NCBI RefSeq assembly: GCF_030546695.1
Contig: NZ_JAUOTP010000001.1
Coordinates: 682,001 to 746,000 of the forward strand
Origin: Sphingomonas natans
Lineage (GTDB): Bacteria > Pseudomonadota > Alphaproteobacteria > Sphingomonadales > Sphingomonadaceae
DNA length: 64,000 bases
Direction of reading: 5' to 3'
Below the pieces are notes generated by a model that searched no databases, was not told the origin of the DNA, and worked only from the letters and a program-made list of their open reading frames with translations. Below, in pieces: positions 38,148 to 43,730 of this stretch (its first letter is position 1; the number at the start of each line of letters is the position of its first letter). Position numbers and translations under genes: made by a program.

Positions 38148-38546
38148 ATGCGTACGAACCCAACTGGCGAGGGCCGCTCGGTACGCCTGCTCCGCGTCGG
38201 CGAGCAGGTGCGGCACAAACTGGCCGAGATCCTGATGCGCGGTGACGTGCATGACGACGTGCTGAGCGCGCATCCGGTATCGGTTACCGAGGTGCGGATG
38301 TCGCCCGATCTGCGCCACGCGATGGTGTTCGTGAAGCCGATGCTCGGCCGCGAGGAGGCGATCGTACTAAAAGCGCTGCGCACCAATACCGCCTATCTGC
38401 AGAGCGAGATCGCCAAGTCGATCAATCTCAAATATGCCGCGAAACTGCGCTTCGAACTCGACGAGAGCTTCGACGAAGGCGCGCGTATCGATGCTTTGCT
38501 CAATTCTCCGATCGTGAAGCGGGACCTTGATGACGACGATGCTTAA
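38148..38546 (+). CDS. rbfA: Ribosome-binding factor A
   Basis: RbfA is a cold-shock 30S maturation factor with a KH-like fold. The 132-residue protein shows [35 protein letters not shown] and the [16 protein letters not shown] segment typical of the family. The usual upstream neighbour infB is absent; a divergent DUF2171 gene lies there instead. The downstream lipoprotein gene overlaps by 17 bp. Confidence 0.95.
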
Positions 38547-39339: not shown

Positions 39340-39906
39340 ATGATGACACCACCCACCGCTTCGCTTCTCAAAAGCCCTCCCTCCCGGGACGGCATCCGCC
39401 TCGTGCCGCTGTCCGCGGATCATCGCGAAGGCCTGCGCGCGGTCTGCGCCGAGGATGTGGCGATCTGGGAGATCTATCCGGTCAATTTCGGCTTGGACGG
39501 GTTCGACGCCGCCTTCGATATCATGCTCGCGCGCCCCGACCGGATCATCTTCGTGATCCATGACGGCGATGCCCTCGTCGGCATGACCGGCTATATCCTG
39601 ACGATGATCGCCTATCAGACGGTCGAGATCGGCAACTCCTATATCCGCCCCGCCGCGCGCGGCACCGGGCTCAACGGCCGGCTCAAGCGGCTGATGATCG
39701 ATCACGCCTTCGCCTCCGGCATCCGCCGCGTCGAGCTGCGTGCCGACAGCCGCAACACGCGCTCCTGCGCCGCGATTCGCAAGGTCGGCGGCGTGCTCGA
39801 TGGCGTACTCCGCCAGGAGCGCGCGACCTGGACGGGCCATGTCCGCGACACCTGCGTCTTCTCGATATTGGCGAGCGAATGGCCGAACCCCTCCACGGCT
39901 GGCTGA
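39340..39906 (+). CDS. GNAT family N-acetyltransferase
   Basis: A 188-residue GNAT protein with the acetyl-CoA loop ARGTGLNGRLKRL (motif A), a following helix (IDHAFASGIRRVELRAD) and the NTRSCAAIRKVGG block typical of RimJ/RimL-like enzymes. The acceptor is unknown. Two adjacent Met codons start the frame at 39340. The truB start lies inside its end (28-bp overlap), so it is probably cotranscribed with truB. Confidence 0.88.
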   Translation: MMTPPTASLLKSPPSRDGIRLVPLSADHREGLRAVCAEDVAIWEIYPVNFGLDGFDAAFDIMLARPDRIIFVIHDGDALVGMTGYILTMIAYQTVEIGNSYIRPAARGTGLNGRLKRLMIDHAFASGIRRVELRADSRNTRSCAAIRKVGGVLDGVLRQERATWTGHVRDTCVFSILASEWPNPSTAG

Positions 39907-40889
39907 TCCTCGACAAGCCGCTGGGCCTGGGCTCCACGCAGGGCGTCTCTGCGGTCAAGCGCGCGCTGCGCCAGGCGGGCCATCCCAAGGCGCGCGTCGG
40001 CCATGGCGGGACGCTCGATCCGCTCGCGACCGGTGTGCTCCCGATCGCGATCGGCGAGGCGACCAAGCTCGCCGGGCGCATGCTCGACAGCGACAAGATC
40101 TACGATTTCACGATCCGCTTCGGCGCCCAGACCTCGACGCTGGATGCCGAGGGCGAGGTGGTCGCCGAAAGCGACGTGCGGCCGACTTTGGCACAGGTCG
40201 AGGCGGTGCTGCCGGTGTTTACCGGCCCGATCGATCAGGTGCCGCCCGCTTATTCGGCGCTGAAGGTCGACGGCAAGCGCGCCTACGCGCTGGCACGCGC
40301 CGGCGAAGAGGTCGTCCTGGCGACGCGGCATGTGACGGTGCATGCCCTCACGATCCTCCCCGGCACGGGGAGGGGGACCGGCGAAGCCGGTGGAGGGGGC
40401 TCACAACCTTCCGTATCGCCAGCGGAGAACCCCCTCCACCATGCTGCGCATGGTCCCCCTCCCCGTCTCGGGGAGGATCGGGAAAGCATCACCCTCTCCG
40501 CGCACGTCTCCAAGGGCACCTATATCCGCTCCCTCGCGCGCGACATCGCGCTCGCGCTCGGCACGGTCGGCCATGTGACGATGCTCCGCCGCACGAAGGC
40601 CGGCCCCTTCGCGCTCGCGGACTCGATATCGCTGGACAAATTGGAGGAGGCCGCTAGAGGAGCGGCGCTGCAGGAGCTGCTCCTGCCGCTGACGGCCGGA
40701 CTGGACGACATCCCGGTTCTCGCCGTCTCCCCCGATCAGGCCATCGCGCTCCGCCAGGGACGCCGGCTTGCCGGTCACGCAGCACCACCGGGTCTCAACC
40801 TCGCGATGCAGGGCGCACTGCCCATAGCGCTCGTCGAGGTTGGCGAAGACATCAAGGTGGTGCGCGGCTTCAATCTGATGTCGGAGTGA
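39879..40889 (+). CDS. truB: tRNA pseudouridine(55) synthase TruB with in-frame repeat insertion
   Basis: TruB converts U55 to pseudouridine in the T-loop of tRNAs. The 336-residue protein has [10 protein letters not shown], catalytic Asp47 in [14 protein letters not shown], and [14 protein letters not shown]. Residues about 161-201 ([20 protein letters not shown] and onward to GPPPRLGED) are not TruB-like. They are encoded by a palindromic repeat element (40355-40486) inserted between the VTVHALTIL strand and the [14 protein letters not shown] strand, in frame and without a stop. The enzyme may tolerate it as a surface loop. Confidence 0.94.
40355..40486. repeat. Palindromic repeat element inside truB
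   Basis: A 132-bp element with nested inverted repeats. The left part has CCTCCCC-GGCAC-GGGGAGG then GGGGGACCGG and GGTGGAGGGGG. The right part mirrors it: CCCCCTCCACC, then GGTCCCCCTCCCC and a closing CCCCGTCTCGGGG. The outer arms pair almost perfectly, and each arm also contains its own small hairpins. It is carried in frame through truB. Confidence 0.85.
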
Positions 40890-40897
40890 ATGAACAC

Positions 40898-41167
40898 ATG
40901 ACGATCACCGCCGTGCGCAAAGCCGAAGTCATCAAGGAACATGGCCAGACCGAGGGCGACACCGGGTCGCCGGAAGTCCAGGTCGCGATCCTGACCGAGC
41001 GGATCATCAACCTGACCGAGCATTTCAAGACCCACGCGAAGGACAATCACTCGCGCCGCGGTCTGCTGATGATGGTGAACAACCGCCGCAGCCTGCTCGA
41101 TTATCTCAAGAAGAAGGACGCCGCCCGCTACACTGCCCTCATCGGCAAGCTCGGCCTCCGCAAGTAA
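40898..41167 (+). CDS. rpsO: 30S ribosomal protein S15
   Basis: The 89-residue protein matches bacterial S15: [56 protein letters not shown] and the IGKLGLRK ending. I chose ATG 40898, which gives the family's usual length, with GGAG 11 bases upstream; a GTG four codons earlier overlaps truB. A strong terminator follows. S15 binds 16S rRNA early in 30S assembly. Confidence 0.97.
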
Positions 41168-41200: not shown

Positions 41201-41384
41201 CTGCCGCCGTTCCGGGCTAAGACCGGGACGGCGACCAAGACCGGGACAAGGGCAATAAGGCCTGCGTCCGAAGGGGCATCATAGTCCCGCACCGCACGGG
41301 CCGGCTGCCCGACAGAACCCCGCAAATCATCGGGGTTCGCCATAGGCCCCCGGCGCATTGGGCGTCGGGAGTGAAGGAAACAGA

Positions 41385-43730
41385 ATGTTCGATATCAAGA
41401 AGACGGAAGTCCAGTGGGGCGGCAAGACGCTGACCCTGGAAACGGGCCGCGTCGCCCGCCAGGCCGACGGCGCGGTGCTCGCGACGCTCGGCGAGACCGT
41501 GGTCCTCTGCGCGGTCACCGCCGCGCGCTCCGTCAAGGAAGGGCAGGATTTCTTCCCGCTCACCGTCCACTATCAGGAAAAGTATAGCGCGGCCGGGCGC
41601 ATCCCCGGCGGCTTCTTCAAGCGCGAGCGCGGCGCGACCGAGAAGGAGACGCTGACCAGCCGGCTCATCGATCGTCCGATCCGCCCCCTCTTCCCCGAGG
41701 GTTTCTACAACGAGATCAACGTCATCTGCCAGGTTCTCAGCTATGACGGCGAGAATGAGCCGGACGTGCTGGCGATGGTCGCCGCCTCGGCCGCGCTCAC
41801 CATCTCCGGCGTGCCGTTCATGGGCCCGATCGGCGCCGCGCGCGTCGGCTATATCGAGGGTGAGTATATCCTCAACCCGACCCAGGAGCAGATCAAGGCG
41901 GGCGATCTCGATCTCGTCGTCGCCGCCACCGGCAATGCCGTGATGATGGTCGAATCCGAAGCCAAGGAGCTTTCGGAAGACGTCATGCTCGGCGCGGTCC
42001 AGTTCGCGCACAAGGCGTGCCGCGAGGCCGTCAACGCGATCATCGATCTCGCCGAGAAGGCCGCCAAGGATCCGTGGGAAATGGCCGCTCAGGCCGATCT
42101 CTCGGCCGCCAAGGACAAGCTCAAGAAGCTGATCGGCAAGGACATCGCCGCCGCCTACAAGGTGACCGACAAGTCCAAGCGTTCGGGCCTGCTCAACGAG
42201 GCGCGCGCCAAGGGCAAGACCGCCTTCGCCGATGCCGCCCCGCAGGACCAGATGGCCGCCGGCAAGCTCATGAAGAAGCTGGAAGCCGAGATCGTCCGCA
42301 CCGCCATCCTGAAGGACGGCAGCCGCATCGATGGCCGCACCACCACCCAGATCCGTCCGATCGAGGCGATGGTCCACTTCCTGCCGCGCGCACACGGCTC
42401 GGCCCTGTTCACGCGCGGCGAGACGCAGTCCATCTGCTCGACTACGCTCGGCACCAAGGATGCCGAGCAGATGATCGATGGCCTGTCGGGCCTGTCGTAC
42501 GAGCGCTTCATGCTCCACTACAACTTCCCGCCTTATTCGGTCGGTGAAGTCGGCCGCTTCGGCGCTCCCGGGCGTCGCGAAGTCGGCCACGGCAAGCTCG
42601 CCTGGCGCGCTCTGCACCCGGTCCTGCCGAGCGTGGAGGAATTCCCCTACACGGTGCGCGTCCTGTCCGACATCACCGAGAGCAACGGCTCCTCGTCGAT
42701 GGCCACGGTCTGCGGCGGTTCGCTGTCGATGATGGATGCCGGCGTGCCGCTCAAGCGCCCGGTCTCGGGCATCGCGATGGGCCTGATCCTCGAAGGCAAG
42801 AACTTCGCGGTCCTGTCCGACATCCTCGGCGACGAGGATCATCTCGGCGACATGGACTTCAAGGTCGCCGGCACGTCCGAGGGCATCACCACGATGCAGA
42901 TGGACATCAAGATCGCCGGCATCACCGAGGAGATCATGAAGGCCGCGCTCGCCCAGGCCAAGGAAGGCCGCGCGCACATCCTGGAAGAGATGGCCAAGGC
43001 GCTCACCGGCGTCGGCGAGCTCTCCGCGCATGCCCCGCGCATCGAGACGATGTCCGTTCCCAAGGACAAGATCCGCGATGTGATCGGCACGGGCGGCAAG
43101 GTGATCCGCGAGATCGTCGCGACCACCGGCGCCAAGGTCGACATCGAGGATGACGGCACCGTCAAGATCTCGTCGTCGGATCCGGAGAAGATCGCCGCGG
43201 CCCGCAAGTGGATCGAAGGCATCACGATGGAGGCCGAGGTCGGCAAGGTCTATACCGGCAAGGTCGCCAGCATGGTCGATTTCGGTGCCTTCGTCACGTT
43301 CATGCCGGGCAAGGACGGCCTCGTCCACATCTCGGAAATCAAGAACGAGCGCGTCGCCAAGGTCTCCGACGTCCTGACCGAAGGCCAGGAGGTCAAGGTC
43401 AAGGTTCTCGAGATCGACGGCCGCGGCAAGGTCCGCCTGTCGATGCGCGTCGTCGATCAGGAGACCGGCACCGAGCTGGAGGACACGCGCCCCGCACGCG
43501 AGCCGCGCGAGGGCGGCGACCGTCCCGATCGTGGTGATCGTCCGCGCGGCGACCGTCGTCGCGAAGGCGGCCCGGGCGGCGGTGGCGATCGTGGCCCGCG
43601 TCGCGAAGGCGGCGATCGTGGTCCCCGTCGTGAAGGCGGCGACCGCGGCCCGCGGCGCGAGCCGAGCGCCGGCGGTGACGAGGCCCCGGCCCCCTTCGCC
43701 CCGGCCTTCCTGAACCGCGACGACGATTGA
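41385..43730 (+). CDS. pnp: Polyribonucleotide nucleotidyltransferase
   Basis: PNPase degrades RNA 3' to 5' using phosphate and is a degradosome component. The 781-residue protein has two RNase PH domains (core block [17 protein letters not shown]), a KH domain ([12 protein letters not shown]) and an S1 domain ([20 protein letters not shown]). It then extends into a tail of about 70 residues rich in Arg/Gly with three GDRGPRREG repeats, longer than E. coli PNPase. ATG 41385 has AAGGA six bases upstream. The 217-bp leader after rpsO contains a CCCCG-CGGGG hairpin near 41317-41338. Confidence 0.97.

Follow-up and report, generated by a model that had tools for sequence, protein, structure and literature searches.

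The truB gene and its palindromic insert

The window, by which we mean the whole 64,000-nucleotide stretch of the Sphingomonas natans genome analysed here, contains a truB gene that forms a single open frame with an ATG start and scores above the cut-off of the TIGR00431 TruB model; it gives the only TruB_N match in this genome. Within the gene lies a palindrome belonging to a dispersed repeat family that we refer to as family A. The features are as follows.

39879–40889, plus strand: truB, tRNA pseudouridine(55) synthase, 336 aa, GGTLDP motif, frame intact (open reading frame list, NCBIfam)
40354–40477, plus strand: family A palindromic element, a 124 bp inverted doublet, in frame, residues about 159–200
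40354–40402, plus strand: left repeat unit, from the outer arm TCCTCCCC through the inner arm (inverted-arm search; single-unit matches elsewhere in the genome)
40403–40426, no strand: 24 nt spacer separating the inner arms (inverted-arm search)
40427–40477, minus strand: right repeat unit, an inverted relative of the left unit (inverted-arm search, genome matches)

The earlier note had described a nested palindrome in frame within truB at 40355–40486; the nesting and the frame stand, and the limits, which we set by the outer TCCTCC...GGAGGA ends, shift slightly to 40354–40477. The outer inverted arms (40342–40379 and 40452–40489) are 38 nt long and 87% complementary, and the inner arms are at 40389–40402 and 40427–40440. 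The segment 40345–40490 is predicted to fold as DNA at -59.6 kcal/mol compared with a shuffled mean of -30.0 (z -9.3) and as RNA at -107.8 (z -9.35), and in each case none of 200 shuffles equals it. The 13 Rfam matches in 40000–41000 all fall below the gathering scores, are mostly to eukaryotic miRNA families, and were taken as hairpin artefacts; sub-threshold matches at window positions 40316–40514, on both strands, are attributed to the long hairpin.

TruB residues 161 and 203 align with residues 162 and 167 of PDB chain 1r3f, so that there are 41 residues here where the chain has four, in agreement with the proposal in the earlier note that some 41 residues are added between two TruB strands with the frame left open. 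Gly, Pro and Glu are abundant in the element peptide. In an AlphaFold2 model built with 51 of 79 prepared sequences (mean pLDDT 82.3) the sole stretch of three or more residues scoring below 50 is 164–198, flanked by strands 150–159 and 203–210; the insert is thus predicted to be a disordered loop, and we would expect it to be translated as an additional floppy segment of the enzyme. Inheritance of an insert is seen within a group of named Sphingomonas loci. Across 13 named loci that have an inherited insert in common, a set chosen by eye, the dN/dS of the insert is 0.64 (bootstrap 0.38–1.04) and that of the core 0.08. In this one clade the insert is kept in frame and is barely constrained. 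The named loci, 80 in all, are the best matches to an insert-bearing query, so that filled loops are over-represented among them, and they were used for illustration, dN/dS and structure alignment only.

Family A copies elsewhere in the genome

A search of the genome with 40340–40500 returns 71 matches, and of 74 candidates 40 were scored; by hand count the family occupies at least 40 distinct places. Many of these are inverted doublets of about 106–149 bp and others match a single unit only, over 33–50 bp. Many copies have about 73–84% identity over some 125 bp, and the mean GC content of the family is 72%. Matches of about 47 bp to a single unit include L061, L064 and L069, which have a possible diverged second end under the rule used to locate outer ends and may be diverged doublets. 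Both outer ends were found by rule in 27 of the 40 copies, the other 13 being excluded from length counts, and the lengths of the 27 modulo three are 0, 1 and 2 in 8, 12 and 7 copies respectively. Inspection of these 27 copies by eye reveals no consistent GTAG/CGTC tag at their ends, and no clear target duplication or flank consensus. Family A has a REPIN-like architecture, mostly of inverted doublets.

The earlier note called for a search for further copies and in-frame insertions, and both are present. Pfam and NCBIfam models were run against the open reading frames that span elements, and for four of these frames solved structures served as a further comparison. Copies are clearly in frame in methylmalonyl-CoA mutase, the error-prone polymerase DnaE2, and dihydrolipoyl acyltransferase. 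Mutase residues 499 and 547 both lie opposite chain residue 535, which places an insertion of 47 residues at the start of the element; in DnaE2 one NCBIfam stretch spans the element and the HHH_6 match ends at the element start; and in the acyltransferase the element lies in the linker between the lipoyl and E3-binding domains. MurD very probably carries a fourth such copy, with a single weaker related NCBIfam family aligned as one stretch across the element; the piece preceding the element is recognisable as a domain, yet its alignment with the PDB chain reaches only 0.3 bits. A copy in an ImuB-like gene (L068) is probable and L005+ is uncertain as an in-frame copy. The proposal that this is a protein-diversifying element holds only in so far as in-frame copies occur in further conserved proteins; useful diversification does not follow, with the TruB insert nearly unconstrained in one clade and predicted to be disordered.

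Conserved proteins with an in-frame copy, TruB and MurD included, account for 5 of the 40 places. All five of these copies, which were partly chosen by their open frame, have lengths of 1 modulo three; among the 22 others 7 do (Fisher P 0.0098). Such a bias would be expected were survival limited to inserts that keep the frame. Eleven element-spanning open reading frames have no family at the cut-offs and are not counted as intragenic (L070+, L005-, L012, L008+, L006, L059, L066, L002+, L003, L010 and L071), and in L008-, L064 and L069 the element precedes the recognised domain. The remaining places were judged by open reading frame and GC3 only. The probable ImuB-like copy (G000:C1 near 198985) and the dnaE2 copy (L055, G000:C1 near 203398) are about 4 kb apart. 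Among the matches listed for the relatives G005 and G004 there are many element-like peptides in long open frames, and in-frame copies may therefore be common there.

The TruB loop in the Sphingomonadaceae

The earlier note proposed that relatives would lack the loop, and in their TruB alignments it is indeed missing or different. An initial TruB search gave a match in 58 of 59 genomes, with a partial locus alignment showing wildly different loops. In a survey of 119 Sphingomonadaceae genomes, approximately one per genus, 118 have a TruB_N match, and up to 20 kb around truB was taken for 117 of these; the window was added to them. Of the resulting 118 loci 113 gave a readable loop (L157, L170, L173, L250 and L264 failed the patterns), and the loop length from the ARAG motif is 40 residues or fewer in 51 and greater in 62.

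Loop DNA was compared by BLAST with 2.10 Mb of locus DNA in which truB was masked by tblastn. At E<=1e-5, 27 of the 113 loops have matches, and no equal-sized piece of truB does either upstream (0/113) or downstream (0/113); the match of one RPDP-type loop among the 27, L215, is probably due to chance. At E<=1e-4 there are 28 loops, two upstream pieces and no downstream pieces with matches (of 113 each), and at the laxer 1e-3 there are 36, 9 and 17. A control with random segments, in which 72 of 113 match at 1e-5, was set aside because random pieces of syntenic loci match their orthologues. Palindromy at z>=4 relative to dinucleotide shuffles occurs in 24 of 36 long loops, in none of 26 RPDP loops and in none of 51 short loops, although these classes depend on the BLAST test since the class of 36 includes RPDP-bearing loops with a BLAST match (L215 too). 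One short loop reaches a palindromy p of 0.01, and no upstream or downstream truB piece from the 113 loci reaches z>=4. By BLAST or palindromy, and with L215 excluded, 28 of the 113 loops hold a repeat-derived insert.

About 33 of the 113 loops (such as L160, L163, L178 and L245; L190 was set aside as a pattern artefact) have a conserved non-palindromic segment around RPDPYDP, which may be an old fixed insert, and six RPDP loops have a repeat at the left edge. The earlier note had regarded the same loop without a palindrome as grounds for rejecting an element; long RPDP-type loops lacking a palindrome do occur, but differ in sequence from the window's. Among the named loci, L142, L150 and L154 carry a further repeat-like kind of the CGTCATCCCAGCGAAGGCTGGG type, and L117 and L145 carry a repeat-like sequence resembling CTCCGCGTCTCCGCG. 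The records behind L089 and L150, filed under the names Bacillus sp. 2B10 and Arthrobacter sp. TPD3018, have a sphingomonad-like truB; probably these names are wrong or the assemblies are mixed.

Several dissimilar repeat families occupy the same TruB loop across the Sphingomonadaceae, and this is the main point beyond those raised in the earlier note. Clustering of 34 inserts by BLAST (the 27 with matches, and seven chosen by eye) gives groups of 11 (window-like), 9, 6 and 2, together with six singletons; L162 was assigned manually to the group of 6 and L240 was kept separate. The group of 9 is chained through the composite L218, in whose 115-residue loop several CGTC-type units are combined with one GTTCG..CGAAGG-type unit. 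By eye this group separates into five inserts of a CGTC-tagged kind and four of a GTTCG..CGAAGG kind. There are thus four groups by BLAST, or five kinds by eye, plus singletons. By eye, CGTC is seen at the ends of loops L155, L158, L168, L184 and L269. The window's own genus has three families in this loop and one apparent remnant, the loop of G001 (L042), which looks by eye like a family A element shrunken in frame, a sign of decay after insertion.

Five loops were searched against whole genomes, and each type is multicopy in at least one. The HPREGGDPE type has 15 matches in G008 and 31 in G020; STGSAR has 116 in G027, 12 in G083, 9 in G128 and 7 in G068; LKQVQGDD has 6 in G062 and 47 in G148; GLVP has 11 in G003 and 9 in G148; and HPNPLP has 54 in G004, 22 in G136, 19 in G060 and none in G071. 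Many of these span one arm of 25–50 bases, and there are fewer places than matches because palindrome strands and single arms are counted apart.

Three genes near truB were used as controls, which we take to be rbfA (judged by its sequence and its place among the neighbouring genes), rpsO and pnp.

38148–38546, plus strand: rbfA-like open reading frame, control gene
40886–41167, plus strand: rpsO-like open reading frame, control gene
41358–43730, plus strand: pnp-like open reading frame, control gene

The library of repeats, which was built from TruB loops and speaks for those families only, has no match in the tblastn intervals of pnp, rpsO and rbfA (250, 31 and 37 kb, about 318 kb) and matches about 43 other places in approximately 2.1 Mb of loci. 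The other aligned parts of TruB have no rare insertion longer than 6 residues, and rare insertions in PNPase reach 30 residues, without library matches. In 23 order-level relatives with a TruB match the aligned pieces flanking the loop are at most 51 nt apart, and the insert is therefore absent from them. In a phylum-wide sample of 140 genomes, 139 matched, five of which are Sphingomonadaceae; 60 loci were fetched, comprising 38 from outside the family with frames of at least 335 aa, 18 others of the same class, and 4 fillers. Loops were read by script in 44 of the 60, with 43 being of 31–36 residues and L314 a pattern artefact, and of the other 16 loci 13 have a short loop in the printed text, with L309, L318 and L319 not judged. 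The outgroup TruB loops that could be read carry no insert.

A FastTree tree of the 113 genomes was built from the TruB core and PNPase with the loop excluded. The 30 labelled rows (of which L191 and L244 pass neither numeric test) require at least 24 presence/absence changes, with 19 forced by starred branches, whereas shuffled labels require 26.8 on average. However, 42 of 500 shuffles are as low as the observed value, and the sampling is thus too sparse to show inheritance either way. The changes per family equal the rows per family (11, 7, 5, 4 and 2), and so at the present sampling there is no sign of a single insert inherited across genera; with about one genome per genus, old gains followed by losses may also have occurred.

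Origin of the insert and recurrence at one site

Palindromic inserts of related organization have been described previously. In Di Nocera et al. 2013 (PMC3733652), GTAG/CGTC REP dimers are dispersed inverted dimers of short palindromic units that sometimes lie wholly within genes. The truB genes of S. maltophilia, E. litoralis and S. alaskensis are named there as holding REPs, as are DnaE2 genes, and truB of R. conorii as holding RPE-1. Family A resembles these in being dispersed as inverted dimers in genes, and some TruB loops are CGTC-ended by eye; it differs in that the window's family has no such tag and in that one TruB turn is the site. The Rickettsia palindromic elements are reported as palindromes of about 105–146 bp in frame in conserved genes, with the product Gmk translated and active (PMC2229807). 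Family A likewise inserts palindromes in frame in conserved genes, although in another host order, and the comparison with these elements in the earlier note is apt for a dispersed palindromic family that lies in frame within genes, the likeness being one of working and not of compared sequence. REPINs are REP doublets, inverted repeats with a spacer and a predicted hairpin, which Bertels and Rainey 2011 (PMC3116915) treat in extragenic space and tie to RAYT transposases. Family A shares the two inverted units, the spacer and the hairpin-forming capacity, but several of its copies are in frame in conserved genes and the window's genome has no Y1_Tnp match.

A search of open-licence papers brought up none recognised as stating one shared recurrent TruB site. 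As far as this search extends, what is new is that one site is shared, how widely it is used, how many families use it, and the control comparisons. In-frame palindromic inserts have hitherto been described as scattered across many genes; here one enzyme loop is re-entered by dissimilar families, which makes the TruB turn an unusual point of natural entry for mobile DNA within a functioning gene.

We consider it probable that this turn is a tolerated and recurrently colonised safe harbour, in which a non-autonomous REPIN-like element entered and was kept and which several families re-enter. A copy of a dispersed palindromic element of this kind would have inserted into truB. Its retention would follow from an added length divisible by three, the lack of a stop in that frame, and a position at a turn between strands that tolerates a long disordered loop. 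The turn between strands 150–159 and 203–210 would then be a recurrent landing site in the Sphingomonadaceae for dissimilar families, apparently many times over, with entries later shrinking by in-frame deletion or being overlaid by further repeats. The recurrence probably stems from tolerance at the turn and abundant mobile palindromes, with selection against inserts that break the frame, and not from targeting or benefit. What moved the element may be a transposase that worked in trans or has since disappeared. The window's genome, estimated to be 100% complete in 13 contigs, gave no Y1_Tnp match (PF01797, RAYT-type), and on this ground a RAYT was rejected as the mover; a control search found PF01797 in 6 of 14 named genomes. 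In a set of 22 relatives, almost all of them picked because their loops are filled, 13 have no Y1_Tnp match and 9 have a PF01797 match, some of them weak and candidate RAYTs at most. PF01797 also covers other transposases. As a defined site the turn offers a means to test what moves repeats without a known transposase, and as a natural replicated experiment it bears on palindrome survival within genes, protein tolerance and target choice.

Tolerance alone does not explain the choice of this turn over others, and a possible though doubtful alternative is that the machinery of several families prefers the DNA of this turn, recognising there a short sequence, a hairpin or a palindrome that arrived before. 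The contrast between about 28 of 113 filled loops on the one hand and, on the other, no library matches in the roughly 318 kb of pnp, rpsO and rbfA and about 43 other places in some 2.1 Mb of loci would fit this, as would the several repeat kinds in the composite L218 and the fact that no rare insertion elsewhere in the aligned TruB exceeds 6 residues. Yet no transposase was found in the window's genome, the 27 family A copies have by eye no clear target duplication or flank consensus, and dissimilar families would all need the same target. Tentatively, then, the turn preceding the SKGTYIR motif could be an active attractor, a safe harbour in coding sequence re-entered through target preference by several unrelated palindromic mobile families. 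If so, this enzyme, which modifies RNA, would bear a rotating loop made of repeats throughout an entire bacterial family.

It is unlikely that one or a few ancestral insertions were subsequently overwritten by other repeats through recombination or nested insertion. The composite L218, the family A-like remnant in G001 (by eye) and the repeats at the left edge of six RPDP loops (L190 excluded) would be accommodated readily, but the 51 short loops of the 113 are interspersed among filled ones and at least 24 presence/absence changes are required (19 forced by starred branches), a count qualified by the 42 of 500 shuffles that are as low. Selection of the palindrome as an RNA or protein feature, with the repeats merely its source, is very unlikely; the feature could be a functional loop, for instance, or a hairpin formed in the message of truB, rpsO and pnp. 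In its favour, the predicted RNA hairpin is very stable, and open frames in the 27 family A copies (125 of 162) exceed those in dinucleotide shuffles (94 +/- 5.3, none of 200 equal), although the copies are kin. Against it, none of the 77 short or RPDP loops is palindromic at z>=4, and dN/dS in the insert is near neutral. Ordinary low-complexity expansion of a loop in a GC-rich gene without a mobile element, suggested by the 72% average GC of the family and the Gly-, Pro- and Glu-rich peptide, is hardly credible, being contradicted by the many copies about 73–84% identical over some 125 bp elsewhere in the genome and opposed by the fold z of about -9.
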